Assembly (NCBI RefSeq): GCF_027595165.1
Contig: NZ_CP097291.1
Span: 2,418,001 to 2,482,000, forward strand
From: Providencia sp. PROV188
Lineage (GTDB): Bacteria > Pseudomonadota > Gammaproteobacteria > Enterobacterales > Enterobacteriaceae
DNA: 64,000 nt
Direction of reading: 5' to 3'
Positions 1 to 12,488 of the stretch are shown here, one piece after another (within the stretch, counting starts at the first letter, position 1; each line of letters begins with the position of its first letter). The translations under genes and the position numbers were made by a program. A model generated the notes under the pieces. That model was not told the origin of the DNA, did no database searches, and saw only the letters and a list, made by a program, of their open reading frames with translations.

Positions 1-89
1 TGCAAAAAAGATCGGTTGTAGCTTCTTAGACCAGTAAATAACTCTTCTTTATCTTCAGGGGTAATATCATGTGTAACTGTAACTTTCAT
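1..89 (-). CDS. GNAT-type N-acetyltransferase, N-terminal fragment (runs off the window)
   Basis: An ATG on the minus strand at 89 opens a frame that stays open to the window edge (29 codons). It begins MKVTVTHDITPEDKEELF and continues into GLRSYNRSF. The GLR-x-YN pattern shortly after the start is common at the N-terminus of one GNAT acetyltransferase group, where it precedes the acetyl-CoA domain. Only this N-terminal part is visible, so the acetyl-CoA binding motif cannot be checked and the substrate is unknown. It is divergent from the permease gene that starts at 289. Confidence 0.55.
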   Translation of the reverse strand, partial: MKVTVTHDITPEDKEELFTGLRSYNRSFL

Positions 90-288
90 AACAACCTCAT
101 TTTATTTATCGGTATTTTTATGATGTAGAAAACATCCCGCCAACAAATTAATTATCGCTTACTGTCCGTATAACATCGTATTACGAATATCCTAGTTAGA
201 CACCATTTACTTAATTAAAAACTAAACATTTTTTATCTTGCCTGTAATTTTATTCACCGTAAAATCCCCCTAATCTTTCAGAAAAAAT

Positions 289-1533
289 GTGAATAATATG
301 ACGCTTACCATTATTATTTTTGTGTTGGTCTATATCGCCATGGCATTTGGCAAACTACCCGGCTTTAAAGTTGATAGAACGGGCGCCGCCGTCATCGGTG
401 CATTAGCCATGATGGCCATCGACAGCATCACGCCACCTCATGCCTGGAATGCCATTGATTACCGCACTATCGGCATGCTATTTGGTTTGATGGTGGTCTC
501 CGCTTCGTTTGTGGTTTCCGGCTTTTATAGTTGGACCGCCGATCGCGTGGCGATGCTCAAAGTCAGTGCGCCTACACTGCTTGCCGTACTGATCGCCGTT
601 GGCGGATTACTTTCCGCACTGTTAACCAACGACGTGGTTGTCGTCGCGATGACACCATTATTGGTCTCCATCACACTATCTCGCGGGCTTAACCCCATTC
701 CGTTTCTGCTTGGATTCTGTTTTGCCGCCAACAACGGTGCAACCGGCTCGCTGATTGGTAGCCCGCAAAATATGATCGCGGCACAGGGGCTAGATATTTC
801 CTTTGTGGGCTTATTACAATCCTCGGCAATACCGGCATTATTATCTTTACCGCTCACCTGGCTGGTATTGGTGTGGTTATATCGCAACCGCTGGTACTTA
901 GCTAAAGAGCCGACTAATACCCCTAAAACGGTCTCTCCTCCAACACCACTCGATACATGGGAAACTGCTAAAGCCGGTGTGATCACACTCGCCGTGATTG
1001 TGGCTTTTGTGGTGAGTGATATACCAAAAGAGTTAATCGCATTAACGGCAGCGGGTTTCCTATTACTGAACCGTTCCATTGCATCTAGCGATATGCTTAA
1101 GTTAGTGGATGGGAATTTATTACTATTAATCATGGGATTATTTGTCGTCAACGCGGCATTTGCTGGAACAGGATTACCGCAGCAAATGTTGAATGATTTA
1201 CGCGCTCATGGTGTTGAACTCAATAACCCATTCATTCTATTTTTAGTAACCGGCGTTCTCAGCACTATTGTCGGAAATAACCCCTCTGTCATGCTGCTGG
1301 TGCCTTTTTTAACGCCTGACGGTAACGCTGATGCATTAGGCGCCGCATTAGTCCTTGGCTCTGGTTTTTCCAGTAACTTGTTTGTGTTTGGTAGCTTGGC
1401 GGGCATTATTGTTGTGGAACAAGCGGCGGCTTATGGTGTGAAAATTTCATTCTCAGAATTTGCAAAATCTGGGGGAATTGTTGCCGTTCTCTGTATGCTA
1501 TTAGCCACTGCATGGATTTTATTCGCGTTATAA
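289..1533 (+). CDS. SLC13/ArsB-type (ion transporter superfamily) anion permease
   Basis: A 414-residue, very hydrophobic protein with roughly ten or more membrane segments. Two re-entrant-type motifs recur: LTNDVVVVAMTP near residue 112 and TIVGNNPSVMLLVP in the C-terminal half. A GSLIGSPQNMIAA segment lies between them. This layout (TNDV and a GSPQN/GNPQN motif in each half) is typical of the SLC13/CitMHS/ArsB/NhaD ion transporter superfamily. The substrate could be an organic acid, sulfate or another anion and cannot be read from sequence. The frame opens at GTG 289; an in-frame ATG at 298 is equally possible because neither has a strong ribosome binding site. It converges on the cyclase gene across a bidirectional terminator. 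Confidence 0.8.
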   Translation: MNNMTLTIIIFVLVYIAMAFGKLPGFKVDRTGAAVIGALAMMAIDSITPPHAWNAIDYRTIGMLFGLMVVSASFVVSGFYSWTADRVAMLKVSAPTLLAVLIAVGGLLSALLTNDVVVVAMTPLLVSITLSRGLNPIPFLLGFCFAANNGATGSLIGSPQNMIAAQGLDISFVGLLQSSAIPALLSLPLTWLVLVWLYRNRWYLAKEPTNTPKTVSPPTPLDTWETAKAGVITLAVIVAFVVSDIPKELIALTAAGFLLLNRSIASSDMLKLVDGNLLLLIMGLFVVNAAFAGTGLPQQMLNDLRAHGVELNNPFILFLVTGVLSTIVGNNPSVMLLVPFLTPDGNADALGAALVLGSGFSSNLFVFGSLAGIIVVEQAAAYGVKISFSEFAKSGGIVAVLCMLLATAWILFAL

Positions 1534-1537
1534 AACT

Positions 1538-1574
1538 AACGCCTTTCTCAGCCTATTTAACTGAGAAAGGCGTT
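1538..1574. terminator. Bidirectional Rho-independent terminator
   Basis: A perfect 14-bp inverted repeat (arms 1538-1551 and 1561-1574, AACGCCTTTCTCAG) lies between two convergent genes. T-rich bases on both outer flanks make it usable from either side. Confidence 0.8.
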
Positions 1575-1582
1575 TAGGATTT

Positions 1583-2323
1583 TCAGGGAAGAATAGCAAA
1601 TGAGCGCACAGGAAACCCACTAGCATTATTGGGTTTCGCCACAATATTAAAAATCACAGCACCACGAGTCGGTAATTGATCTAAATTCGCCATCAACTCT
1701 ATTTGGTAAGTATCTTGTTCTAATACGTAATATTCACCTAATAGCGCGTTATTTTGGCGAAAATCTTTCGCTGCATCAGTATCAAATGTCTCATGCCCAA
1801 TGGCTTTAATGCCACGCTCTTCAAATAAAAATTTGAGCGCATCCATACCCCATCCCGGGATTTGATTATTACCTTCTGCGTCTTTATTATCCATGGCTTC
1901 TTGAGAAGGCCAGCGCTTATGCCAATCTGTGCGTAGTGCTACAAAACTATCCGGTTCGATTCGCCCATGTTCACGCTCGAAAGCTAAAACATCTTCGCGA
2001 GAAAATGCAAAATTAGGGTCTTGTGCCGCTCGCTCAGATTGGTTGATAACGATCAGCGGTAAGACTAACTCTTGCAGCTCCAATTCATGTAAAAAGCGTT
2101 TTCCTTCAACAAAATGGCAAGGCGCGTCAATATGCGTGCCGTATTGCCCAGGAAAGGTAAATTGCTGAGCAAAAAAGCCGTCAGAGTAGCCAAATAATGT
2201 TTTAAATTCTGCAGAGTCAAACATAAAGAAATGAGGAGAATCTTTATCAAAGCTGTGCGTTAAATCCACCCATTTTTTGGATTTTAATACCTTTAGTGCA
2301 TTTAAAACTTCGTTAGCCATCAT
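1583..2323 (-). CDS. Cyclase family protein (kynurenine formamidase-like metal hydrolase)
   Basis: A 246-residue protein of the cyclase/KynB fold (Pfam cyclase family, PF04199). The metal-binding signature is present as GQYGTHIDAPCHF, with His64, Asp66 and His70 as the expected ligands; Gln60 replaces the His often seen at the motif start. Members hydrolyse amide or lactone bonds (for example N-formylkynurenine) or act on isatin. The true substrate here is not deducible. A good ribosome binding site (AGGGGAAA) precedes the ATG at 2323. It is encoded on the same strand as the MetQ-like lipoprotein gene upstream, 154 bp away, so it could be the distal gene of that unit, although the gap leaves room for its own promoter. 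Confidence 0.8.
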   Translation of the reverse strand: MMANEVLNALKVLKSKKWVDLTHSFDKDSPHFFMFDSAEFKTLFGYSDGFFAQQFTFPGQYGTHIDAPCHFVEGKRFLHELELQELVLPLIVINQSERAAQDPNFAFSREDVLAFEREHGRIEPDSFVALRTDWHKRWPSQEAMDNKDAEGNNQIPGWGMDALKFLFEERGIKAIGHETFDTDAAKDFRQNNALLGEYYVLEQDTYQIELMANLDQLPTRGAVIFNIVAKPNNASGFPVRSFAILP

Positions 2324-2477
2324 TTTCCCCTATCTGGTTTTAGTCTTTATCAAGACAATTTTATTTTGCTATTTTTATTTATTCTGAATAGGTAATAACC
2401 AACTCTATGACGTTTGTCTATCTTTCTAAACAATCCGTTGCCAATTTTTCACCAAATTGGCAACGAAGATTCGAATA

Positions 2478-3320
2478 TTATTTAGAATAATTTGCCCATG
2501 CAGCAGGTTCAATAAAACCATCATAAATACGCTGAGAGCGAATATAATCTGCATACTCTTTTGATTCAAAAGCCTCTTTTAAATCTTTAGCCCATTGAGT
2601 GTCGAGATCTTTTTGTAGCACAGAAACCACAACGCGATGCTCAAGCGGTGAATTTTCAACAACCAAACCATCCGCAATACGCTGCCCTGCACTCGCCACA
2701 TAATTACCATTCACTACTACAAAATCCACATCATCCAATAGACGTAAACCTTGCGCGGCATCTGTTTCACGGATATCGAGCTTATATTTTGCCGGTTCAA
2801 TGTCATTGACGCTAAAGCTGAGCGTACTGACATTCGGTTTGATTTTAATCCAACCCAGTTGCTCTAAAATTCGAGCTCCACGTTCCGCGTTTACAGGGTC
2901 ATTTGACAGCGCGACAATCATGCCATCTTGCACATCATTCAGCGTTTTGTGTTTATTCGAACGTAAACTCTGCGGTGCGCTTGGTGAATCGGCCAATGCG
3001 ACCATATTAATATTATTTTTTTGGTTATACGCTTCCATATAAGCGCGACTTTGGTTTACTGATGCGTCAATTGCCCCTTCTTCAAATGCAGGGTTAATTT
3101 GCCTGTTTTGTGAAAACTGACGTAACGTCACTTGGTAACCTTTTTTCTCTAAAATAGGTACAATGCCTTTATCGACTTGGTCGATATAATTCCCAACACC
3201 GAAGCCAATAGTAATTTGCTTTTTATCTGAGCTGTCTTTTTCTTTATTATCACCACATCCTGCCAATAAAATGATTGCGGTTGCCACTAAAGATAAATTT
3301 ATTATTTTTTGTTTGAACAT
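2478..3320 (-). CDS. NlpA/MetQ-family ABC transporter substrate-binding lipoprotein
   Basis: 280 residues. A type II signal peptide ends in the lipobox LAGC (residues 19-22), so the mature protein should be lipidated at Cys22. The body carries family features such as the early GVGNYIDQ strand, the FEEGAIDASVNQSRAYM segment and the ALSNDPVNAERGARIL block, which resemble the MetQ D-methionine receptor. It lies divergently from an operon that supplies a MetN-like ATPase and a MetI-like permease, making a complete importer split by a shared 242-bp regulatory region. Because that operon also encodes redox enzymes rather than methionine enzymes, the ligand is probably another sulfur compound (inference). 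It ends close to residue 280, near the usual MetQ length of about 271. Confidence 0.85.
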   Translation of the reverse strand: MFKQKIINLSLVATAIILLAGCGDNKEKDSSDKKQITIGFGVGNYIDQVDKGIVPILEKKGYQVTLRQFSQNRQINPAFEEGAIDASVNQSRAYMEAYNQKNNINMVALADSPSAPQSLRSNKHKTLNDVQDGMIVALSNDPVNAERGARILEQLGWIKIKPNVSTLSFSVNDIEPAKYKLDIRETDAAQGLRLLDDVDFVVVNGNYVASAGQRIADGLVVENSPLEHRVVVSVLQKDLDTQWAKDLKEAFESKEYADYIRSQRIYDGFIEPAAWANYSK

Positions 3321-3420
3321 TTGAAATTTCCTATGGTGATTACTTTTTAATTACTTTCAGCTTTTAATATTGCCAATCGACCGGAGTATAAACAGGATTT
3401 ATTTAACGTCTTAGATCCGT

Positions 3421-3493
3421 TCGTTATAACTTAAATAGAAATGAATATAAAAATGAATCAAACCAAAATGGTTATAACGATATAACAAAATGG
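3421..3493. promoter_or_regulatory. Candidate sulfur-regulator operator in the divergent promoter region
   Basis: GTTATAAC occurs twice, at 3423-3430 and 3471-3478. The second copy lies inside a direct-repeat structure with CAAAATGGT on each side (3464-3494). The 10-mer TGGTTATAAC (3469-3478) is also found upstream of cysP (31249-31258), and its first eight bases occur upstream of cysK (22205-22212). A CysB- or Cbl-type LysR regulator would be the natural candidate, but this is inference from motif sharing. Confidence 0.35.
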
Positions 3494-3562
3494 TAGTTCG
3501 AATAATGATGTGATTGATATGTAATGAAGGAGATAAAAAAATTTAAATAAAGTGAGTTATTT

Positions 3563-4696
3563 ATGACAGTAAAATTTGATTTAATTAACAATATTCTTAA
3601 CCTGACACCAGACTCAGAATTAGCGAAAAACCGCGCAGAAAGGCCGGTTGCAACAGAAAATACTCAAGCCGCTTTTGAGGCTGTTTTTTCTGTGCCATCT
3701 CAAATATTGCCTCTAAATGTGAAATACTATTTTGCGCTTTCCGTGGCGAAAATTACTGGTTCAATATTACTCGCAAAATATTATGCTGAATTATTATCAT
3801 CACAATCCATCGTCGAAATAACACCTGAGATTACGCTTGCAGAGAAATATCTGCGAGTATTAACCAGCAATCCAAATCAAGCTGATTATGCTTTAACACA
3901 ACAATTTATTCAGCAAGGATGGTCTGAGCCCGATATTATTTTATTGGCTCAGTTAATTACCTTTGTCACTTATCAATCCCGCTTAGTTGCTGGCCTGGAA
4001 TTATTAATTGGACAAAGCCAGAATTCAGATAATAAAGCAGACCAACACTTTCCAATTTTGGCAGGAAATTGGAACCACGCAACGACAACACAGTTAGGGC
4101 AACCATCACCGACCGCCTTTACACAGCAGCAATTAGGTTGGGAGTCTTGGTTATCTGCGCGAGATGTCAATTCGTTAAGTGACGATGAAACTCAAACGCT
4201 GAAAAAACATGGGCAATTAAATTCTGAATATTTCCTTCTGTTAGCTCATCAAAGCGAGATTTTAGCGCTACGTACACAGATAGACCGAGGTATTTTTTAT
4301 ACCTCAGGTGGGCTACCTCGCTGGGAGAGAGAGTTTGCTGCTGCTGCGGTCAGTAAAGTGAATGGCTGCATTTATTGCGCTTCAGTTCATGCGCGCAAAG
4401 CTAGCCAGTATGCAAAAGAACATCTCGGTGATGTCGAGAAACTGCTGGCGACACCCGCAGGAAATGTGCTTGCTGAAGGCTATGAATCGAGGCTTTTAGC
4501 TATCGTTTCTCTTGTTGCTTCGCTCTCTACTACGCCTATTCAAGCCTCAGCTGAGCAAATCGATCAGCTACGCTCATTAGGGTTAACGGAACTAGAGTTA
4601 CTCGATTTAATTCAATCCAGTGCATTTTTTTCATGGGCTAATCGCTTAATGCTGACATTGGGAGAACCGTTTGAACTCCCTGAAAATAAGGAGTAA
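3563..4696 (+). CDS. Fused CMD-domain / alkylhydroperoxidase (AhpD-fold) protein
   Basis: 377 residues in two parts. The N-terminal half (about 1-180) looks like the CMD-domain subfamily named after Avi_7170 and contains no cysteines. The C-terminal half carries the AhpD redox motif as C-I-Y-C-A-S-V-H, with Cys269, Cys272 and His276, and matches the Avi_7169-type alkylhydroperoxidase subfamily. In many bacteria these two are separate adjacent genes; here they form one chain. AhpD-fold proteins reduce peroxides or act in oxidative chemistry through the CxxC pair. It is the first gene of a four-gene operon, four bases before the monooxygenase gene. A GAAGGAGA ribosome-binding-like stretch lies some 25-30 bp upstream and a weaker AAGTGAG lies nearer the ATG. 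The role is unknown; detoxifying peroxide or completing oxidation of the imported compound is plausible. Confidence 0.8.
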   Translation: MTVKFDLINNILNLTPDSELAKNRAERPVATENTQAAFEAVFSVPSQILPLNVKYYFALSVAKITGSILLAKYYAELLSSQSIVEITPEITLAEKYLRVLTSNPNQADYALTQQFIQQGWSEPDIILLAQLITFVTYQSRLVAGLELLIGQSQNSDNKADQHFPILAGNWNHATTTQLGQPSPTAFTQQQLGWESWLSARDVNSLSDDETQTLKKHGQLNSEYFLLLAHQSEILALRTQIDRGIFYTSGGLPRWEREFAAAAVSKVNGCIYCASVHARKASQYAKEHLGDVEKLLATPAGNVLAEGYESRLLAIVSLVASLSTTPIQASAEQIDQLRSLGLTELELLDLIQSSAFFSWANRLMLTLGEPFELPENKE

Positions 4697-4700
4697 TACC

Positions 4701-6161
4701 ATGGATAAGGTCATTGGATTAGCGGCTCTAGAGGCGCAAATAAATCAGGATTTGCAGTATCTTAATTTACCGATTAGCTCATGGTCGTTGTCAGATGAAG
4801 ATCTTGATAAACAAAAGATTAATGTCGCCATTATCGGTGGGGGCATGTCGGGAGTAACGGCGGCTTTTGCCTTAAAATTACGGGGAATTAACGCTATCGT
4901 TTTTGACCAAGCGCCCTCAGGCAAAGAAGGTCCTTGGCAAACGCCAGCCTTGATGGAAACCTTGCGGTCACCTAAACAGGTTGTCGGCCCTGCTCTTGCA
5001 TCCCCCTCTTTAACATTCCAAGCCTGGTTTAAAGCTCAATTTGGCGATGATGTGTGGGAAAATCTCGATAAAATCCCACGCTTACAATGGGGTGAGTACC
5101 TACAATGGTTTAAAACCATGACGGCACCCACACTGCTAAATCAGCACCAATTAGTCGATGTTAAATTAATCCCTCAAGGCCGAGAGTTAACGTTTGATAC
5201 TCCCAATGGACAAACCTCTTTTGTTGCTCAGCATGTTGTCATTGCAACCGGCATGGAATCATTTAGCGAGCCTAACATCCCAGAATTTATGAATAAAATT
5301 CCAACTCAATACTGGGAGCATTCATATGCGGGTAGCAACTATGAGAGATTTAACGGGCTCGATATTGGCGTTGTAGGCTACAGTGCGGGAGCTATGGACA
5401 GTTCAGCCACTGCATTAGAACATGGTGCTAAGTCTGTTGAGTTGTTGATCCGAGCAAAAGAGATGCCGCGAGTAAACCGAGGAAAGGTCGCCGGAAGTGC
5501 CGGTTTTACCAATGCCTATGGGTATTTTACCGATGCGCAAAAATGGCATTATGCCGATTATGTTTTGAAAGCGAAAACCCCTGCCCCTCATGGTAGTACA
5601 CTACGAGTTTCTCGTCATACACATGCTTATTTTAACTTCAATACACAAGTCAATGATGTCACCGTCAAAGAGAATAAATTGCACGTTTCCACCAACCAAG
5701 GGGATTTCTCTTTTGATTACCTCATTTTAGCGACTGGCTACCGACTAAATTGGCAAAAATACAGCCCATTTCATCGCCTAGCGCCGTTTATTAAAACGTG
5801 GAGAGATGTTTATACCCCACCTAAAGGTGAGGAAAATGATGAACTTGCCGCGCATCCCTATCTTGGTGAACACTTTGAATTGCAAGCAAAATCGGGTTAC
5901 GAGTTTCCGTTTATCGACCACTTTTATTGCTTCAATTTAAGCGCTTCGCTCAGCATGGGTCCCTTAATTGGCTTGATCCCAGGCACCAATACCGGAGCTG
6001 AGCGTTTAGCGGATCATATTGCTGCCAAGTTGTATCTAGCCCATCGGCAACAGCACCTTGAGTTGGTTAAAACCAGTACAGAAAATGAGTTATTAGGTGA
6101 TGAATGGCAACCTGCCTTACCACCCGCTCAGCGTGTACAATTGATTGAAAATGTGGAGTAA
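4701..6161 (+). CDS. FAD/NAD(P)-dependent flavoprotein monooxygenase-like oxidoreductase
   Basis: 486 residues from the ATG at 4701, chosen because AAGGAGT precedes it by a normal distance and an upstream in-frame ATG at 4671 would overlap the previous gene. An FAD-binding Rossmann motif GGGMSG is at residues 46-51. A second nucleotide-binding segment, VVGYSAGAMDSSA, lies in the middle, followed by an LILATGYRLNW strand similar to the ATG motif of class B flavin monooxygenases. These features fit an enzyme that uses NAD(P)H and O2 to oxygenate a soft nucleophile, possibly sulfur. The exact substrate is not known. The gene sits between the peroxidase-like gene and the ABC ATPase with only a few bases between stops and starts, so translation is probably coupled. 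Confidence 0.8.
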   Translation: MDKVIGLAALEAQINQDLQYLNLPISSWSLSDEDLDKQKINVAIIGGGMSGVTAAFALKLRGINAIVFDQAPSGKEGPWQTPALMETLRSPKQVVGPALASPSLTFQAWFKAQFGDDVWENLDKIPRLQWGEYLQWFKTMTAPTLLNQHQLVDVKLIPQGRELTFDTPNGQTSFVAQHVVIATGMESFSEPNIPEFMNKIPTQYWEHSYAGSNYERFNGLDIGVVGYSAGAMDSSATALEHGAKSVELLIRAKEMPRVNRGKVAGSAGFTNAYGYFTDAQKWHYADYVLKAKTPAPHGSTLRVSRHTHAYFNFNTQVNDVTVKENKLHVSTNQGDFSFDYLILATGYRLNWQKYSPFHRLAPFIKTWRDVYTPPKGEENDELAAHPYLGEHFELQAKSGYEFPFIDHFYCFNLSASLSMGPLIGLIPGTNTGAERLADHIAAKLYLAHRQQHLELVKTSTENELLGDEWQPALPPAQRVQLIENVE

Positions 6162-6164
6162 AGG

Positions 6165-7178
6165 ATGATTGAATTTAACAATGTCCAAAAGATTTATGAA
6201 AAAAATGGGCAATCCTTAGTCGCTCTACAAGATATTAATTTGCATATCAATAAAGGTGATATTTTTGGTTTTATTGGTTATAGCGGTGCAGGTAAAAGTT
6301 CCTTGATCCGCTTAGTCAATCAATTAGAAAAGCCTACCGGTGGCGCCATCAAGGTCGATCAGCACAATTTAGCGGAGCATACCCCATCGCAAATACGGAC
6401 ACATAAAAAAAGTATCGGAATGATTTTCCAACATTTCAATTTGTTGGAAACCAAGACTGTCGAACAGAATGTTGCTATGCCCCTGGTTTTACTTGGCATT
6501 GATAAGCACGAAATTGCCCGTCGCGTAGATAACATTCTTGAATACGTTGAATTAAGCGATAAGAAACACCAATACCCTAACCAGCTTTCTGGTGGGCAAA
6601 AACAGCGTGTTGGAATAGCGAGAGCGTTGATTAATAATCCACAAATCTTGCTGTGTGATGAGGCAACCTCTGCCTTGGATCCGCAAACCACCGCCTCTAT
6701 TTTGGCATTACTGCAAAAAATCAATCGTGAGCAGAAAATTACCATTTTATTGGTCACTCATGAAATGGAAGTCATTGAGCAGATTTGTCATCGTGTCGCC
6801 GTCATGGAATCCGGTCGCATTGTTGAAGAAGGCACAGTACTTGATATTTTTGCCAATCCTCAACATCCAACCACGCAAAAATTTGTGGGTACTGTGCTCA
6901 ATGAAAAAATTCCGGAGCGTGTACTCCATCAGCTTGAACATCAAGAGGATGTATATCGATTAGAATTTTTAGGCAAATCCGCTCAAGAGCCTGTGGTGAA
7001 TGAACTTATTATCAAAAATATTATTAAAATCAATATCCTATTTGCCAACATGAAAGAGATCAACGGCGTCGTTTTAGGCAGTATGTTTGTTCAGATGTTA
7101 GGCGATAAACAGCACATTGATGAAGCCGTAGCCTATTTACGCCATCGTGGCGTTGCAGTGAATAAGGGGACAGTATGA
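6165..7178 (+). CDS. MetN-like ABC transporter ATP-binding protein with NIL domain
   Basis: 337 residues. Walker A is GYSGAGKS (residues 38-45), the ABC signature is LSGGQKQR, and Walker B is LLCDEATSALDP, followed by the H-loop LLVTHEME. The last 90 or so residues resemble the NIL ligand-sensing domain that in MetN senses intracellular methionine and inhibits transport. Length (MetN is about 343) and architecture fit a D-methionine-type importer ATPase. The start is 3 bp after the monooxygenase stop, with AAGG just upstream; it overlaps the permease gene by 4 bp (ATGA). As the housekeeping metNIQ normally lies elsewhere with no redox genes, this is likely a paralogue for a different sulfur-containing substrate (inference). 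Confidence 0.88.
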   Translation: MIEFNNVQKIYEKNGQSLVALQDINLHINKGDIFGFIGYSGAGKSSLIRLVNQLEKPTGGAIKVDQHNLAEHTPSQIRTHKKSIGMIFQHFNLLETKTVEQNVAMPLVLLGIDKHEIARRVDNILEYVELSDKKHQYPNQLSGGQKQRVGIARALINNPQILLCDEATSALDPQTTASILALLQKINREQKITILLVTHEMEVIEQICHRVAVMESGRIVEEGTVLDIFANPQHPTTQKFVGTVLNEKIPERVLHQLEHQEDVYRLEFLGKSAQEPVVNELIIKNIIKINILFANMKEINGVVLGSMFVQMLGDKQHIDEAVAYLRHRGVAVNKGTV

Positions 7179-7843
7179 GTGAGTTTTTTGAAACAGCACT
7201 GACAAGTAAACAATTTTTATTGGCCATGTCAGAAACATTCACTATGGTGAGTATTGCGCTTGTCCTCGGTTCGCTATTCGGGATCTTATTGGGAATTTTA
7301 TTAGTTATTACTCGCCCAGACGGAATTTGGGAAAACAAACGTATTTATCGCGTTATTAACCCTATTATTAATATATTCCGTTCACTACCTTTTATTATTT
7401 TATTAGTGGCTATAATCCCATTAACACGCTTTGTGGTAGGAACATCTATTGGCACCACCGCGGCGATAGTCCCTTTAGTCATTTATATTGCGCCATATAC
7501 GGCAAGATTGGTTGAGAATTCATTGCTCAGTGTCCATTCGGGTATTATTGAAGCTGCCGATGCAATGGGAGCGACCAACTGGCAAATTGTTTGGCACTTT
7601 ATTCTACCGGAAGCAAAGTCATCATTAATTTTAAGCTTAACGGCTGCCAGTATAACGCTGGTTGGGGCAACGGCGATGGCTGGAGCCGTTGGTGGCGGCG
7701 GTGTTGGTGATCTTGCGCTAAATTACGGTTATCAACGCTTTGATAATGTTGCTATGGCAATTACGGTTGTGACCTTGGTGATTATCGTGCAAGGAATACA
7801 GTTTATTGGTGACACTTTGGCAAGAAAGGCGCGTTTTCACTAG
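7175..7843 (+). CDS. MetI-like ABC transporter permease
   Basis: 222 residues with about five membrane helices. The EAA cytoplasmic loop that docks on the ATPase is readable as EAADAMGATNWQIVWHF around residue 128. Length and sequence resemble MetI (217 residues). It starts inside the end of the ATPase gene with an ATGA overlap and closes the operon, since a strong terminator follows at 7851. Together with the ATPase and the divergent lipoprotein it forms a full methionine-type (MUT family) importer in the inner membrane. Confidence 0.88.
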   Translation: MSEFFETALTSKQFLLAMSETFTMVSIALVLGSLFGILLGILLVITRPDGIWENKRIYRVINPIINIFRSLPFIILLVAIIPLTRFVVGTSIGTTAAIVPLVIYIAPYTARLVENSLLSVHSGIIEAADAMGATNWQIVWHFILPEAKSSLILSLTAASITLVGATAMAGAVGGGGVGDLALNYGYQRFDNVAMAITVVTLVIIVQGIQFIGDTLARKARFH

Positions 7844-7850
7844 TTAATAT

Positions 7851-7890
7851 AAAGTCGATGAAATATCTTCATCGACTTTTATTTATTTTT
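7851..7890 (+). terminator. Rho-independent terminator of the ABC/monooxygenase operon
   Basis: Arms AAAGTCGATGAA (7851-7862) and TTCATCGACTTT (7868-7879) with a 5-base loop, followed by a T-rich tail. Confidence 0.85.
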
Positions 7891-8211
7891 CATACAATTA
7901 ACCATCTCTCTTCCCTTTTCAATTCCTCCGCAAAAAATATTTACACATAAAAAAGTCGCTATTAATACGAGTTTAATAAAAAAACAGGCTATTTCTAAAA
8001 ATTAAATTTTAAAAAATGCAGTAAAATACCAATATATTTTAAATGATTCATATATAATCATAATACTATACATCATAATGTTTATTTGACCACTTGAGAC
8101 CAAAAACACTATGAAATGTATATTTTAGTCACTTTGATAACATCTTTAGCTACCTCGCGCGCTTTACGATGCATCGTCAGCGTTTTATTAACCTCTAACT
8201 GAAAACTGATT
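7891..8211. other. AT-rich intergenic stretch upstream of the antiporter gene
   Basis: No gene is visible. A possible promoter for the antiporter is TTGACC (8086-8091), 18 bp, TATGAA (8110-8115); the -10 element is imperfect. Short A/T tracts fill the rest. Confidence 0.35.
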
Positions 8212-9939
8212 ATGCCGACTATCGAACAACTTATATTGCTTTCATCCATATTGATTTTGCTCGGTATTTTTTCGAGTAAATTGTCTGCAAGACTTGGTTT
8301 GCCAATGTTGGTTATGTTTCTCTTTATTGGCATGCTGGCAGGTGAGGATGGCTTAGGGAAAATTACCTTTGATAACGTCAATGTATCTTATGCTGTTGGC
8401 TCTCTCGCCCTTGCTCTAATCCTTTTCGATGGTGGGCTACAAACCTCAGTAAAATCAATTAAGCTAGTCTGGAAACCTGCATTCACCTTAGCTACCGTTG
8501 GTGTTTTGATTACTGCGGGTATCACTGGGTTAGCCGCTGCCTATATTTTAGGTATTCCACTTCTTGAAGGGTTGCTTTTAGGCGCCATTGTTGGCTCAAC
8601 GGATGCCGCCGCCGTATTTTCACTGCTACGCAATGCAGGCATTTACCTAAATGAGCGTTTACAGGCGACTTTAGAGATAGAGAGTGCAACCAACGACCCC
8701 ATGGCCATATTTTTAACCGTTGGACTACTGCAACTACTAATGAACCCACAAGCCTCTGGCAGTGAATTAGCGTTATTATTTGTTAGCCAAATGGGAATTG
8801 GTGCTGCTGTAGGGGTAGGTGTTGGTTGGATTTCAATAAAGATCATCAACAAAATTAAGTTACTTGCGGCAGGTCTTTATCCCGTTTTAGTGGCGGCTTG
8901 TGGTTTGTTTTCATTCGGTGTCGCCAGTAATTTAGATGGAAGTGGCTTCTTATCTATTTTTGTCACGGGTGTGGTTATTGGTAATCACTCATTTGTTTTC
9001 CAGCGCAATACCTTTCTATTCCATGATGGGCTGGCATGGTTAAGCCAAATCATCATGTTCGTGATGTTAGGCTTATTGGTTAACCCTAGCTCATTAATTG
9101 AGGTATGGCAGGAAGGGTTGCTCATTGCGCTGGTATTAACCTTTGTTGCAAGACCGTTGGCGGTTGTCCCTGTACTCAAACTATTTCGCTTCACTCGAAA
9201 TGAGATAGCACTTATCTCCTGGGTTGGACTAAGAGGCTCTGTTCCGATTATTTTGGCTATTTTCCCCTTCATTTTTGGGTTACCGGGGGCCAACCTCATT
9301 TTTGATGTTGTTTTCTTCGTGGTACTCATTTCTGCAACGCTACAAGGTTCCACGCTGCCTTACTTTGCTCGCAAATTAAATCTTATGCAACCACCACCGC
9401 TTCTGCCCGCTGCGACATTAGATATTACTGCTGTCGACCAGATTGATGCTGACTTGGTCGAATATACGCTGGGCGAGGACTGCTCTGCGGTAGGACGAAG
9501 GTTATCTCAATTAGCCCTGCCTGACCAAACCGTGATTGCGATGATCACCCGAGAAAAAAGTGTATTGCCACCACGCGGCTCAACAATCTTAATGGCAAAT
9601 GATCATTTGTTTGTCGTACTAAAACCGCAAAGTCGCCTATTCTTAGAAAGATTATTCTCCGAACAAACCTCTTCAGAACCAACCGTTATGGAGCTACCTG
9701 AATCAGGTTTAAGCTTAAAAGGCACAACGCGATTAAATGAAATTTATGAGTCATATGGGATTTTGATTGAAGTTGATTCCGATAAAACACTCAATCAATT
9801 TATTCACGTCAATACTGAAAATGAACCCTCTCAAGGGGATGTGATTAAGCTAGATGGCATACAAATAAAAATTGATGAAATGATCGGCCCACGTATCGTT
9901 ACTGTTATTTTAGAGCCAGTAAAAATCCAGCAGGAATAA
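8212..9939 (+). CDS. cvrA: Potassium/proton antiporter CvrA (NhaP2 type)
   Basis: 575 residues. The first 400 form a CPA1-type cation/proton exchanger with about 12-13 membrane segments and the motifs FIGMLAGEDGLG, GSTDAAAVFSLL and ESATNDPMAIFLT; the paired acidic residues of the last are expected in the ion-binding site. A RCK/TrkA-C domain follows (about 400-480) and then a CorC/HlyC-like C-terminal domain, the architecture of CvrA/NhaP2. These proteins export K+ (and Na+) in exchange for H+ and protect against high internal potassium or low-osmolarity stress. It is monocistronic: an operon terminator lies upstream and a strong terminator just downstream. The identity as CvrA rather than a close CPA1 paralogue rests on length and domain order. 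Confidence 0.82.
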   Translation: MPTIEQLILLSSILILLGIFSSKLSARLGLPMLVMFLFIGMLAGEDGLGKITFDNVNVSYAVGSLALALILFDGGLQTSVKSIKLVWKPAFTLATVGVLITAGITGLAAAYILGIPLLEGLLLGAIVGSTDAAAVFSLLRNAGIYLNERLQATLEIESATNDPMAIFLTVGLLQLLMNPQASGSELALLFVSQMGIGAAVGVGVGWISIKIINKIKLLAAGLYPVLVAACGLFSFGVASNLDGSGFLSIFVTGVVIGNHSFVFQRNTFLFHDGLAWLSQIIMFVMLGLLVNPSSLIEVWQEGLLIALVLTFVARPLAVVPVLKLFRFTRNEIALISWVGLRGSVPIILAIFPFIFGLPGANLIFDVVFFVVLISATLQGSTLPYFARKLNLMQPPPLLPAATLDITAVDQIDADLVEYTLGEDCSAVGRRLSQLALPDQTVIAMITREKSVLPPRGSTILMANDHLFVVLKPQSRLFLERLFSEQTSSEPTVMELPESGLSLKGTTRLNEIYESYGILIEVDSDKTLNQFIHVNTENEPSQGDVIKLDGIQIKIDEMIGPRIVTVILEPVKIQQE

Positions 9940-10009
9940 TATGTTAAAAATAGTGATAATCCATTTTCATTTTTCCACGCTTATTTTCTAAATTGTATGC
10001 ATAAAAAAT

Positions 10010-10036
10010 AAAAGCCCCAAAGGGGCTTTTATTTTT
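10010..10036 (+). terminator. Rho-independent terminator of cvrA
   Basis: Arms AAAAGCCCC (10010-10018) and GGGGCTTTT (10022-10030) with an AAA loop and an ATTTTT tail. Confidence 0.9.
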
Positions 10037-10183
10037 GCAAGTACTCTATATAAGAGGGAGATTAATATATTCAATGACTTTTACTAACTAACTTGAGTTA
10101 ATTAATTTTATCGTTCTCAATTGAAACAATTTAATTACTGTACTTAATTTGTTTCATTATGAAACGTATACATGGAATAGATA

Positions 10184-10483
10184 TTATACGAGAGAATAAA
10201 GTGAGTCGTTAAACCCTTTAGATTCTCTTTCCTCAGACGCGTTGATATCATCCTGGAGAACTTCACTGAAGAACTCACCCATATTTACGCCTAGTACCTT
10301 TAATACGCGAACTAAGCAATCTATATCAATACGATTCACACCTCGTTCATAACGAAATAGTTGTTGTTCACTGATGTCGATCTCTTTAGCTAATTGGAAA
10401 ACCGTATAGCCTTGAGCTTTTCTTAAAGACTTAATTTTTTGTCCAACTGCACAAGCGACAGGATATTTTGTATTCATAAACAT
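10184..10483 (-). CDS. MrpJ-like XRE-family transcriptional regulator (orphan)
   Basis: 99 residues with one HTH_3/XRE domain at about residues 14-70. The recognition helix region reads SEQQLFRYERG (38-48), which matches the SQQQxSRYERG pattern of the Proteus MrpJ family; these proteins are normally encoded at the end of fimbrial operons and repress motility while favouring adherence. No fimbrial gene is in view. Two starts are possible, ATG 10483 or ATG 10477 (MNTKYPV...), with AAGCGAG upstream; the second is spaced better. The gene is preceded by a 1.4-kb AT-rich region without genes, which suggests long-range or nucleoid-protein regulation. Which genes it controls is unknown. Confidence 0.75.
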   Translation of the reverse strand: MFMNTKYPVACAVGQKIKSLRKAQGYTVFQLAKEIDISEQQLFRYERGVNRIDIDCLVRVLKVLGVNMGEFFSEVLQDDINASEERESKGFNDSLYSLV

Positions 10484-11867
10484 TCTCGCTTCAATCTATA
10501 TTAATTGAATAAAAATCAGCAGGTATTTTCTGCCATTTTCATTGTTATTTTATATGTACTATATAGTTCATCGATAAAAACATGGTGATACATCCAACAT
10601 CACTAAGAGAATGATATACTAGCCTTCTAATTAGTTTCAACTAGTCCAAAAATGACATTGCAACTATGTAACAAAATATTTTTTTCTATACAAACAAGAC
10701 GAGTTAGCAAATAAATCCTTAATTATCAATCTGTTATGCAAATTGATAGCCAGTGAATATCACCGAGTAAACTCAGGTGAAAGAGCACATCGCAAGACAA
10801 TTCACTAAAAACCAACCACTTTCCCGCCAATAAATCCAAAAATAAAGGAAATAAACAGAATAATTTAACACTGTAACAAAGTTAATCGTTTCACGATAAC
10901 ATTGGTAGTTTTTTGAGTCAAAAACCACATTAAGTGAGCATTTTCTGTAAAAGAAAGTAAAAAATATGTGTTTTACATATGTAACTATTTTGCAACATAA
11001 AACATCAATAACTTACATTTTTGAACCGCATGCTACAAATTAATTAAACGCTATATTTTTAAAGTAACTTAGTGAATTTAATGCACCCACATATTCAACA
11101 TAACAAAACATTAACGTTAAGGAAGCCGAACATTCACTTTACTTGATGAATATCACAAAAATATGAACATTACTGATTATCGATAATCTTATTTTAATAT
11201 TATGAATACATGAACACTCAGAAATTATTGAACTTTAAGATTATCAAAACGTGAATAGCTAGAATTATTCACTAATATACTACTTTGAAGATATTCTTTT
11301 ACTGTAATATCAATGAAAGTTTTGTTTGTTATTTCTTTAATATCATCTAAGAATATTCTTAATAATTTATTTAATCCAAACCAACATAAGGCTGTTCATG
11401 GGTATCGCATAATTTAGTTTCTAACGCAGTTACATTACCGCCATAGTTTTAAATAAAAATTCATTTCAGATAAAACTATTAATGCATTAATCCTTTAACA
11501 TCTCCATTTAGGTAATTTCACTTAAGGCGTTAACATTCTTTATTTTTATTAACTAGATTTTGATTTTAACCAAATTGAGACTTATTCAATGCAAGGAAAA
11601 ATCTCGTTATCGTTTCATTGAATATATTGATTCATAAAAAAAACAAAAGTTTATATTAATAATATAATGGTCAATATAACGCCATATTCAATCTTAATAG
11701 GAATAATACTTAATGAGTAATATGAATATTTAAGCAAAATCAACGAAGGATCATAGAGAGAGGATGATGAAAATTTATTGAATGTAACTATACGCAAATT
11801 AACTAAAATCAGTAAGTTATATCTTCAATTGACGTTTTTAGAGAGGCGCTTTTTGAGAATGATGAAG
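10484..11867. other. AT-rich gene-free region
   Basis: About 1.4 kb with stop codons in all frames and no convincing gene on either strand. It is visibly richer in A and T than the flanking genes. Short inverted repeats occur (for example around 10963-10982, ATATGTGTTTTACATAT). A small GC-richer island at 11374-11450 has a 25-codon open frame between two stops on the minus strand. Plausible contents are the regulatory region of the MrpJ-like gene, decayed coding sequence, or a small RNA, but none can be confirmed. Confidence 0.6.
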
Positions 11868-11943
11868 TGGTGGGCGATAGCGGGCTCGAACCACTGACCC
11901 CCTCCTTGTAAGGGAGGTGCTCTACCAACTGAGCTAATCGCCC
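11868..11943 (-). tRNA. tRNA-Val (TAC)
   Basis: 76 nt including the encoded CCA. The anticodon stem CTCCCTTACAAGGAG carries anticodon TAC. It is the last tRNA of the six-gene minus-strand operon and identical in body to the other three valine copies. Confidence 0.97.
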
Positions 11944-11964
11944 ACTTCATGACGCTGTACTTGA

Positions 11965-12040
11965 TGGTGGGTCGTGCAGGATTCGAACCTGCGACCAATT
12001 GATTAAAAGTCAACTGCTCTACCAACTGAGCTAACGACCC
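11965..12040 (-). tRNA. tRNA-Lys (TTT)
   Basis: 76 nt with encoded CCA. Anticodon stem-loop TTGACTTTTAATCAA gives anticodon TTT. Identical to its neighbour at 12085-12160. Fifth gene of the operon. Confidence 0.97.
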
Positions 12041-12084
12041 ATATTCAAGTATCTGTACTGCTTGAATGACTTATTTCATTTAGA

Positions 12085-12160
12085 TGGTGGGTCGTGCAGG
12101 ATTCGAACCTGCGACCAATTGATTAAAAGTCAACTGCTCTACCAACTGAGCTAACGACCC
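12085..12160 (-). tRNA. tRNA-Lys (TTT)
   Basis: 76 nt with encoded CCA, anticodon TTT. A copy of the preceding lysine tRNA, and the fourth gene of the operon. Confidence 0.97.
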
Positions 12161-12202
12161 ATCTGTATTTCTGAATTGTTTTTAATGCAAGAAAAGATGA
12201 AG

Positions 12203-12278
12203 TGGTGGGCGATAGCGGGCTCGAACCACTGACCCCCTCCTTGTAAGGGAGGTGCTCTACCAACTGAGCTAATCGCCC
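12203..12278 (-). tRNA. tRNA-Val (TAC)
   Basis: 76 nt with encoded CCA, anticodon TAC. Third gene of the operon. Confidence 0.97.
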
Positions 12279-12309
12279 ACTTCATAATAACCACATTGTC
12301 ATAAATAAT

Positions 12310-12385
12310 TGGTGGGCGATAGCGGGCTCGAACCACTGACCCCCTCCTTGTAAGGGAGGTGCTCTACCAACTGAGCTAATCGCCC
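12310..12385 (-). tRNA. tRNA-Val (TAC)
   Basis: 76 nt with encoded CCA, anticodon TAC. Second gene of the operon; only about 27 bp separate it from the first. Confidence 0.97.
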
Positions 12386-12412
12386 AATCATTTATGTTTT
12401 CATCGTCAACGG

Positions 12413-12488
12413 TGGTGGGCGATAGCGGGCTCGAACCACTGACCCCCTCCTTGTAAGGGAGGTGCTCTACCAACTGAGCTAATCGCCC
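12413..12488 (-). tRNA. tRNA-Val (TAC)
   Basis: 76 nt with encoded CCA, anticodon TAC. Promoter-proximal gene of the operon. The cluster corresponds to the valU-valX-valY-lysV locus near gltX in E. coli, expanded here by one lysine and one valine copy. Confidence 0.97.

Follow-up and report, generated by a model that had tools for sequence, protein, structure and literature searches.

Related systems

The MetNIQ methionine importers are built from an ATPase with a NIL domain, a permease and a binding lipoprotein. In the Neisseria meningitidis MetQ lipoprotein, according to passages of PMC6739813, the methionine backbone is held by R156, N213 and N238, the thioether is ringed by Y81, F98, H100 and Y103, and an N238A change weakens binding more than 100,000-fold. 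A second kind of system, known through NCBIfam models and present in Pantoea, Rhizobium and Paracoccus, combines a substrate-binding protein (TIGR04028), a luciferase-like monooxygenase (LLM; TIGR04027, LLM_KPN_01858) and carboxymuconolactone decarboxylase (CMD)/peroxidase proteins (TIGR04029 and TIGR04030). In a third, found on Sinorhizobium meliloti pSymB and Agrobacterium pAt and in Pantoea and the Burkholderiales, CMD and peroxidase genes accompany a flavin-containing monooxygenase (FMO) that uses FAD. We describe here a five-gene cassette with likenesses to all of these, at positions 2478–7843 of a 64,000-nucleotide stretch of the Providencia sp. PROV188 genome (contig NZ_CP097291.1, positions 2,418,001 to 2,482,000; the whole stretch is called "the window" below). 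A literature search found no study of this cassette, and nothing on Avi_7169, Avi_7170 or TIGR04027–04030 save an incidental mention of KPN_01858.

A five-gene cassette fixed in Providencia

The cassette consists of a MetQ-like lipoprotein gene (2478–3320, minus strand; 280 amino acids (AAs), with a lipobox, LLAGC, judged by eye) and, across a 242-bp divergent regulatory region (3321–3562), a four-gene operon on the plus strand. The operon encodes a CMD/AhpD fusion protein (3563–4696; 377 AAs), an FAD/NAD(P) monooxygenase (4701–6161; 486 AAs, with an alternative, longer TTG start at 4671), a MetN-like ATPase with a NIL domain (6165–7178) and a MetI-like permease (7175–7843). All five reading frames are open and complete, and the operon genes are separated by 4 bp (fusion/flavin) and 3 bp (flavin/metN-like) or overlap by 4 bp (metN-like/metI-like), as an earlier sequence-only reading of this DNA had reported. 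Pfam and NCBIfam agree with the families named in that reading (NlpA lipoprotein, 1.9e-46; CMD, 1e-09; ABC_tran, 9.7e-37, with NIL, 6.1e-20; BPD_transp_1, 1.3e-21); the cassette and its intact genes are confirmed.

The flavin gene is present in all 24 Providencia genomes and in none of 12 other genera of the family; in other families of the order there were weak and partial matches only, in 3 of 24 genomes. The same reading had proposed a comparison of gene neighbourhoods, and in all 18 Providencia relatives with fetched flanks (23 were available) the order and orientation of the five genes are kept. Because the flavin gene is genus-wide, is absent from the 12 other genera of the family and lies in a conserved gene order, the cassette is fixed in Providencia and is not a chance assembly. 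One of the 23 relatives (genome G019, loci L026 and L135) has its CMD fusion gene split over two frames, while its other four genes are full or nearly full matches.

The importer is probably not a methionine importer

The PROV188 genome encodes two NIL-domain ATPases and two MetQ-family lipoproteins, and the set outside the cassette has canonical scores. The cassette proteins belong to the same three families as MetNIQ, but all score below the NCBIfam cut-offs: 369.2 bits against 499.7 for MetN (TIGR02314), 103.6 against 228.85 for MetQ/NlpA (TIGR00363) and 210.9 against 212, a shortfall of just 1.1 bits, for MetI (PRK10782). In an alignment with N. meningitidis MetQ, whose numbering we use, the residues at Y81, F98, H100 and Y103 are N, N, S and Y in the cassette lipoprotein, and those at R156, N213 and N238 are R, N and V; an alternative gap pairs N238 with R229 rather than V230 and leaves no asparagine there either. 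Four of the seven methionine contacts are thus replaced (Y81 to N, F98 to N, H100 to S, and N238 to V or R). These pocket residues are identical in the window and its 18 relatives save for one V to I change, whereas the canonical paralogue in the same genome has F, F, H, Y, R, N and N at the seven positions. The nearest MetQ-like matches outside the genus are about 35–37% identical (seen in 52 plasmid records; among 294 other genomes of the order, three have a match at E 1e-40 or better).

On the strength of these replacements we reject methionine import as the task of the cassette; methionine binding has probably been lost, and the importer is probably not of the ordinary methionine type. Since two backbone contacts are kept and the aromatic pocket is now lined by polar residues, the alignment suggests that the ligand is a carboxylate-bearing compound with a polar side.

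Relatives of the flavin gene and their importers

We compared 87 loci that contain a relative of the flavin gene: 80 named genome contigs, six plasmids and the window. The 80 are the best of at least 107 confirmed relatives, so the tallies do not describe a random sample; absences apply to the flanks retrieved, of 8 kb at most. Genes in this survey were called by script, so that starts may be wrong and some reading frames antisense, and gene-cluster names rest on one representative each or on plasmid annotation (the PotB-cluster representative has no Pfam match). In 62 of the 87 loci the flavin gene has a CMD or peroxidase gene no more than nine genes away, and in 42 of these 62 "CMD-linked" loci it is immediately adjacent on the same strand. 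The sequence-only reading was correct that these redox genes travel together.

Its further statement, that CMD/peroxidase genes recur beside methionine-type importers, does not hold in this sample: MetQ and MetI homologues occur at one CMD-linked locus, the window itself. On the strand of the flavin gene the importers are instead of the Pot (18 loci), Dpp (16), TctC/TctA (11), PAAT (4) and TRAP (2) classes, with two loci that have two classes and eight without a named importer, besides the window; TctC matches are often lone binding proteins without a permease, and the Dpp genes of L037 look like a separate unit. A gene of the octopine/nopaline-dehydrogenase family is found near 23 of the 62, in 18 of these together with Pot-type genes, and a LysR-cluster gene is present in 21. 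Compared with these FAD-FMO clusters, then, the Providencia cassette has a homologous flavin enzyme and CMD/peroxidase domains, but its importer is of another type and its CMD/peroxidase protein belongs to another clade.

The flavin monooxygenase

The predicted fold of the flavin enzyme is closest to those of ornithine N-hydroxylases, with small FMOs a close second. Unlike the resemblance in fold, identity to N-hydroxylating monooxygenases (PvdA, KtzI, putrescine N-hydroxylase and SidA) is low, 10–15% in the alignments; the known N-hydroxylating monooxygenases are biosynthetic, and none is known to have a CMD partner. Enzymes of Burkholderiales, Rhizobiales, Rhodobacterales, Pantoea and others are about 37–46% identical to it, and in the FMO tree the window lineage is a long branch within a mainly betaproteobacterial group.

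Among 30 relatives of the CMD-linked clade 149 alignment columns are 90% conserved, and at 36 of these columns five members of the genus have a change in common. The genus enzyme lacks several arginines that its relatives conserve (positions 84, 177, 185 and 252); one of them follows the second dinucleotide-binding motif, and its loss may have changed the cofactor preference. A PADLOC search gave one weak match, of residues 31–71 to LmuA (E 2.1e-05), which we take to be the FAD-binding segment.

The CMD/AhpD fusion and its origin

The fusion protein scores 102.4 bits against TIGR04029, above the cut-off of 100.75, and 228.8 bits against TIGR04030, just below the cut-off of 233.15. It is about 44–47% identical to the listed Pantoea fusions that are encoded beside a TIGR04027 monooxygenase, against about 30–34% to the FMO-linked proteins. 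For the peroxidase domain the corresponding values are 59–60% for the Pantoea fusions, 43% for the Rhizobium LLM-linked protein and 44% for the best FMO-linked one, so by this measure only the Pantoea LLM-linked proteins stand out, that of Rhizobium being no closer than the best FMO-linked sequence. In the peroxidase-domain tree the genus groups with three LLM-linked sequences, nearest Pantoea (support 100/97), and apart from 46 FMO-linked ones (100/98). This is the second tree made of this domain; for it 12 FMO-linked sequences and the split genus copy (L135) were dropped and two LLM-linked sequences were added, making six in all. An approximately unbiased (AU) test on it disfavoured placing the genus with the FMO-linked group (p-AU 0.024; one test, made after a first tree had been seen). 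By length, roughly 11 of 59 peroxidase proteins are fused (330 AAs or more), the window's included.

Judged by these data, CMD/peroxidase proteins that are related to one another work with two flavin monooxygenases that are not. Like the LLM cassettes, that of Providencia pairs a flavin monooxygenase with CMD/peroxidase domains, and importers are also present in those of Pantoea and Rhizobium; their monooxygenase, however, is of the LLM class and their importer of the peptide type, and the Pantoea cassettes contain additional amidohydrolase and VOC genes. A KPN_01858-type monooxygenase was sought and the window was found to have the FAD enzyme in its place, with no LLM homologue at any of the 62 CMD-linked FMO loci. 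The Providencia cassette looks like a hybrid that draws its FAD enzyme from one kind of cassette and its fusion from the other, and adds an importer of MetNIQ type. On a Paracoccus denitrificans plasmid (L143) the TIGR04027 monooxygenase, CMD and peroxidase genes lie shortly after genes for sarcosine oxidase, folD and purU, an arrangement that by analogy points to amines and not to sulfur.

A predicted sestrin-like arrangement of AhpD domains

The redox cysteines of the fusion protein are all in its C-terminal half, where AAs 269–276 (CIYCASVH, codons at 4367–4390, plus strand) form the AhpD CxxCxxxH motif. In the structure model, residues 1–368 match residues 68–474 of human Sestrin2, with two AhpD domains in a like predicted arrangement, and the fusion shares with the sestrins the possession of two AhpD-like domains of which one has, and one lacks, a redox cysteine. 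It differs from Sestrin2 in that the order of the two domain kinds is reversed, the active domain has CxxC rather than a single cysteine, Sesn-B is missing and no significant sequence match exists: one of 20 members of the Sestrin family (PF04636) matched at E 0.13 and none better, and a profile search of PDB sequences returned no sestrin-named chain among 16 matches up to E 10. The degenerate domain of Sestrin2 binds leucine.

Regulation

In the divergent region a palindrome, GTTATAAC (3423–3430), is largely conserved across the genus (by eye, in an alignment of 19 sequences), and an inverted repeat, GTTATA-N4-TATAAC (3471–3486), looser in some relatives, is a candidate operator. In the genome the repeat is matched exactly at one site and with a single mismatch at 12 more, where a reversed control gives 50, which leaves no basis for naming a regulon. 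Because the exact repeat occurs only once, a dedicated regulator seems likelier than a global sulfur or methionine regulator; no regulator gene lies within the cassette itself.

The S. meliloti kin cluster, which we assign to SMb20278–85 from its replicon, its position and the genes in it (the record itself was unannotated), comprises LysR, a potFHIG-like importer, the oxidoreductase SMb20280, SMb20279 and SMb20278. Genes of this homologous cluster are mentioned in PMC3596328 and PMC3484140; passages of the former report that the cluster is affected by glnD and glnBK mutations and belongs to a class raised under high nitrogen. This links the kin cluster to nitrogen control, yet its raised expression at high nitrogen does not suit simple nitrogen scavenging.

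Possible functions of the cassette

The findings support the earlier view of an importer and oxygenase cassette of catabolic type that lacks a defined substrate. The reading that we favour, though tentatively and at somewhat less than an even chance, is the uptake of an amine-like or amino-acid-like compound, its oxygenation by the enzyme with the N-hydroxylase fold, and a follow-up reaction by the sestrin-like AhpD pseudodimer. The MetNIQ-type importer, rebuilt so that it probably no longer favours methionine, would bring in an amine or amino-acid derivative that is small, carries a carboxylate and has a polar side. The flavin monooxygenase, with its predicted ornithine/putrescine N-hydroxylase fold, would then oxygenate the compound, most likely at nitrogen; were the substrate a secondary amine, N-hydroxylation could give a nitrone whose hydrolysis would release a keto acid. 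The fused AhpD protein, whose cysteine-active and cysteine-free domains are predicted to be arranged like those of Sestrin2, would next reduce the oxygenated product, or might alternatively remove peroxide made by a misfiring flavin enzyme.

The sequence-only reading had the cell import a sulfur compound. Its argument from a methionine-type importer fails because the binding-site contacts of the lipoprotein are replaced, but other hints of sulfur are left, and organosulfur salvage is the rival that deserves most weight, although we consider it rather unlikely. In that scheme the compound imported would be a sulfur amino acid of polar character, for example a sulfoxide or S-substituted cysteine; its oxygenation by the flavin enzyme would break the C–S bond, and the CxxC protein would reduce a sulfenate or disulfide. 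The best evidence for a sulfur substrate comes by analogy from the Pantoea LLM cassettes with which the Providencia fusion groups, whose M20 hydrolase has YxeP as its closest PDB match (359 bits); passages of PMC9706529 describe YxeP as the N-acetylcysteine deacetylase of the Bacillus subtilis S-(2-succino)cysteine pathway. In addition, two of four examined MetQ-like plasmid loci (L149 and L152, on two Bacillales plasmids) are near genes for LLM or SsuD (alkanesulfonate monooxygenase) proteins, a SufS-like PLP enzyme gene is present at 8 of the 62 CMD-linked loci, and the S. meliloti locus has a TauE/SafE gene. Yet the thioether pocket of the cassette lipoprotein has been dismantled, while the MetQ-like proteins of those two plasmid loci retain 6 and 7 of the 7 residues that contact methionine; near the flavin gene, TauE and YxeP-like deacetylase genes are each found at one locus in 62 and LLM genes, as noted, at none. 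The candidate operator, with its one exact copy, gives no hint of a global sulfur regulon, the modelled fold is nearest that of ornithine N-hydroxylases, and nitrogen regulators act on the homologous cluster of S. meliloti.

A protective module, which would take up and destroy a toxic amino acid analogue or oxidised metabolite and have no nutritional role, appears improbable to us. The AhpD-type redox domain, the expression of the S. meliloti cluster at high nitrogen and a MATE-cluster gene (named from Agrobacterium annotation) beside 7 of the 62 relatives would suit it, but a cell defending itself against a toxin from outside would hardly be expected to take it up, and an importer of a named class lies on the strand of the flavin gene at 54 of the 62 loci, the window included. 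Improbable too is the idea that the flavin enzyme is a ring hydroxylase of the urate/purine type (HpyO kind) and that the cassette degrades an N-heterocycle. It draws on relatives, about 30–35% identical, that lie near urate-degradation genes at 9 of the 25 CMD-free loci (eight with OHCU-decarboxylase-cluster genes and one, L095, with a PuuE-cluster gene only). Such genes are absent from the fetched flanks of all 62 CMD-linked loci, however, and in the FMO tree one group (SH-aLRT 97) unites 8 of the 9 urate-linked enzymes with 7 unlabelled ones and contains no CMD-linked enzyme, L095 lying outside; the tree was built by a quick method and has long branches, that of the window included, and on it the CMD-linked and the urate-linked sequences need two changes each, as L081 and L095 lie apart. 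The next two enzymes, hydroxyisourate hydrolase (PF00576) and OHCU decarboxylase (PF09349), are moreover without a match in the PROV188 genome, and we reject a urate-to-allantoin pathway here. The flavin enzyme is, by its sequence, a distant cousin of the urate-linked enzymes that stands outside their pathway, and those kin presumably include HpyO, although the comparison held no HpyO sequence. The enzymes of such HpyO-type clusters are alike in this distant kinship, while the window neighbourhood differs from theirs in its lack of urate genes. Candidate urate hydroxylases are the FMO relatives of Bacillota and Alphaproteobacteria that are encoded next to genes of the hydroxyisourate hydrolase, OHCU decarboxylase and PuuE types (L109, L113, L117, L099, L106 and others); HpxO-type modules are covered in parts of PMC10117892.

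A broader proposal, which we regard as unlikely, is that the CMD/peroxidase proteins, whether heterodimer or fusion, are sestrin-like bacterial proteins and the one invariant part of a general catabolic module, in which they work with two unrelated classes of flavin monooxygenase and six classes of importer. The cysteine-free domain would bind an amino-acid-like substrate or product, much as the degenerate domain of Sestrin2 binds leucine, and the CxxC domain would complete the oxygenation; Providencia would have made its own version from an FMO, a fusion of the LLM type and a MetNIQ importer put to a new use.

Flanking genes

Hairpins like intrinsic terminators follow the metQ-like gene (2467–2434, minus strand, 14 pairs) and the operon (7851–7879, plus strand, 12 pairs); both are consensus matches only, and 10 such hairpins were observed in the scanned stretch where 6.1 were expected from shuffles. 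An Rfam search of window positions 1–11000 gave no RNA match, and a search of a phage collection gave none. The first hairpin lies between the metQ-like gene and a PF04199 cyclase gene (1583–2323, minus strand) that is its same-strand neighbour in 16 of 18 relatives; being beyond the hairpin and without a homologue (E 1e-8) at the other 61 CMD-linked loci, the cyclase gene was set aside as a sixth member. Adjoining it is a gene for a CitMHS/ArsB-like membrane transporter (289–1533, plus strand), which the flanks retrieved from 12 of the 18 relatives contain whole or in part. Farther away, a tRNA array (11868–12488, minus strand) has six genes (Val and Lys) that lie upstream of a gene identified by eye as gltX, after which come two tRNA-Ala genes. 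On the second contig of the same genome, a region near 10579–12000 matches a Providencia plasmid gene annotated with a TcdA/TcdB-type glycosyltransferase domain.

Implications

For Avi_7169 and Avi_7170 we found family names without an established function, and their association with two flavin monooxygenases and several importer classes presents a common step that can be tested. The sestrin-like architecture offers bacterial material for studying how a catalytic AhpD domain cooperates with one that is degenerate and may bind a ligand. For Providencia itself, metabolic models that credit its genus-wide MetNIQ-type importer with methionine uptake would be wrong, since this importer is probably not of the methionine type.

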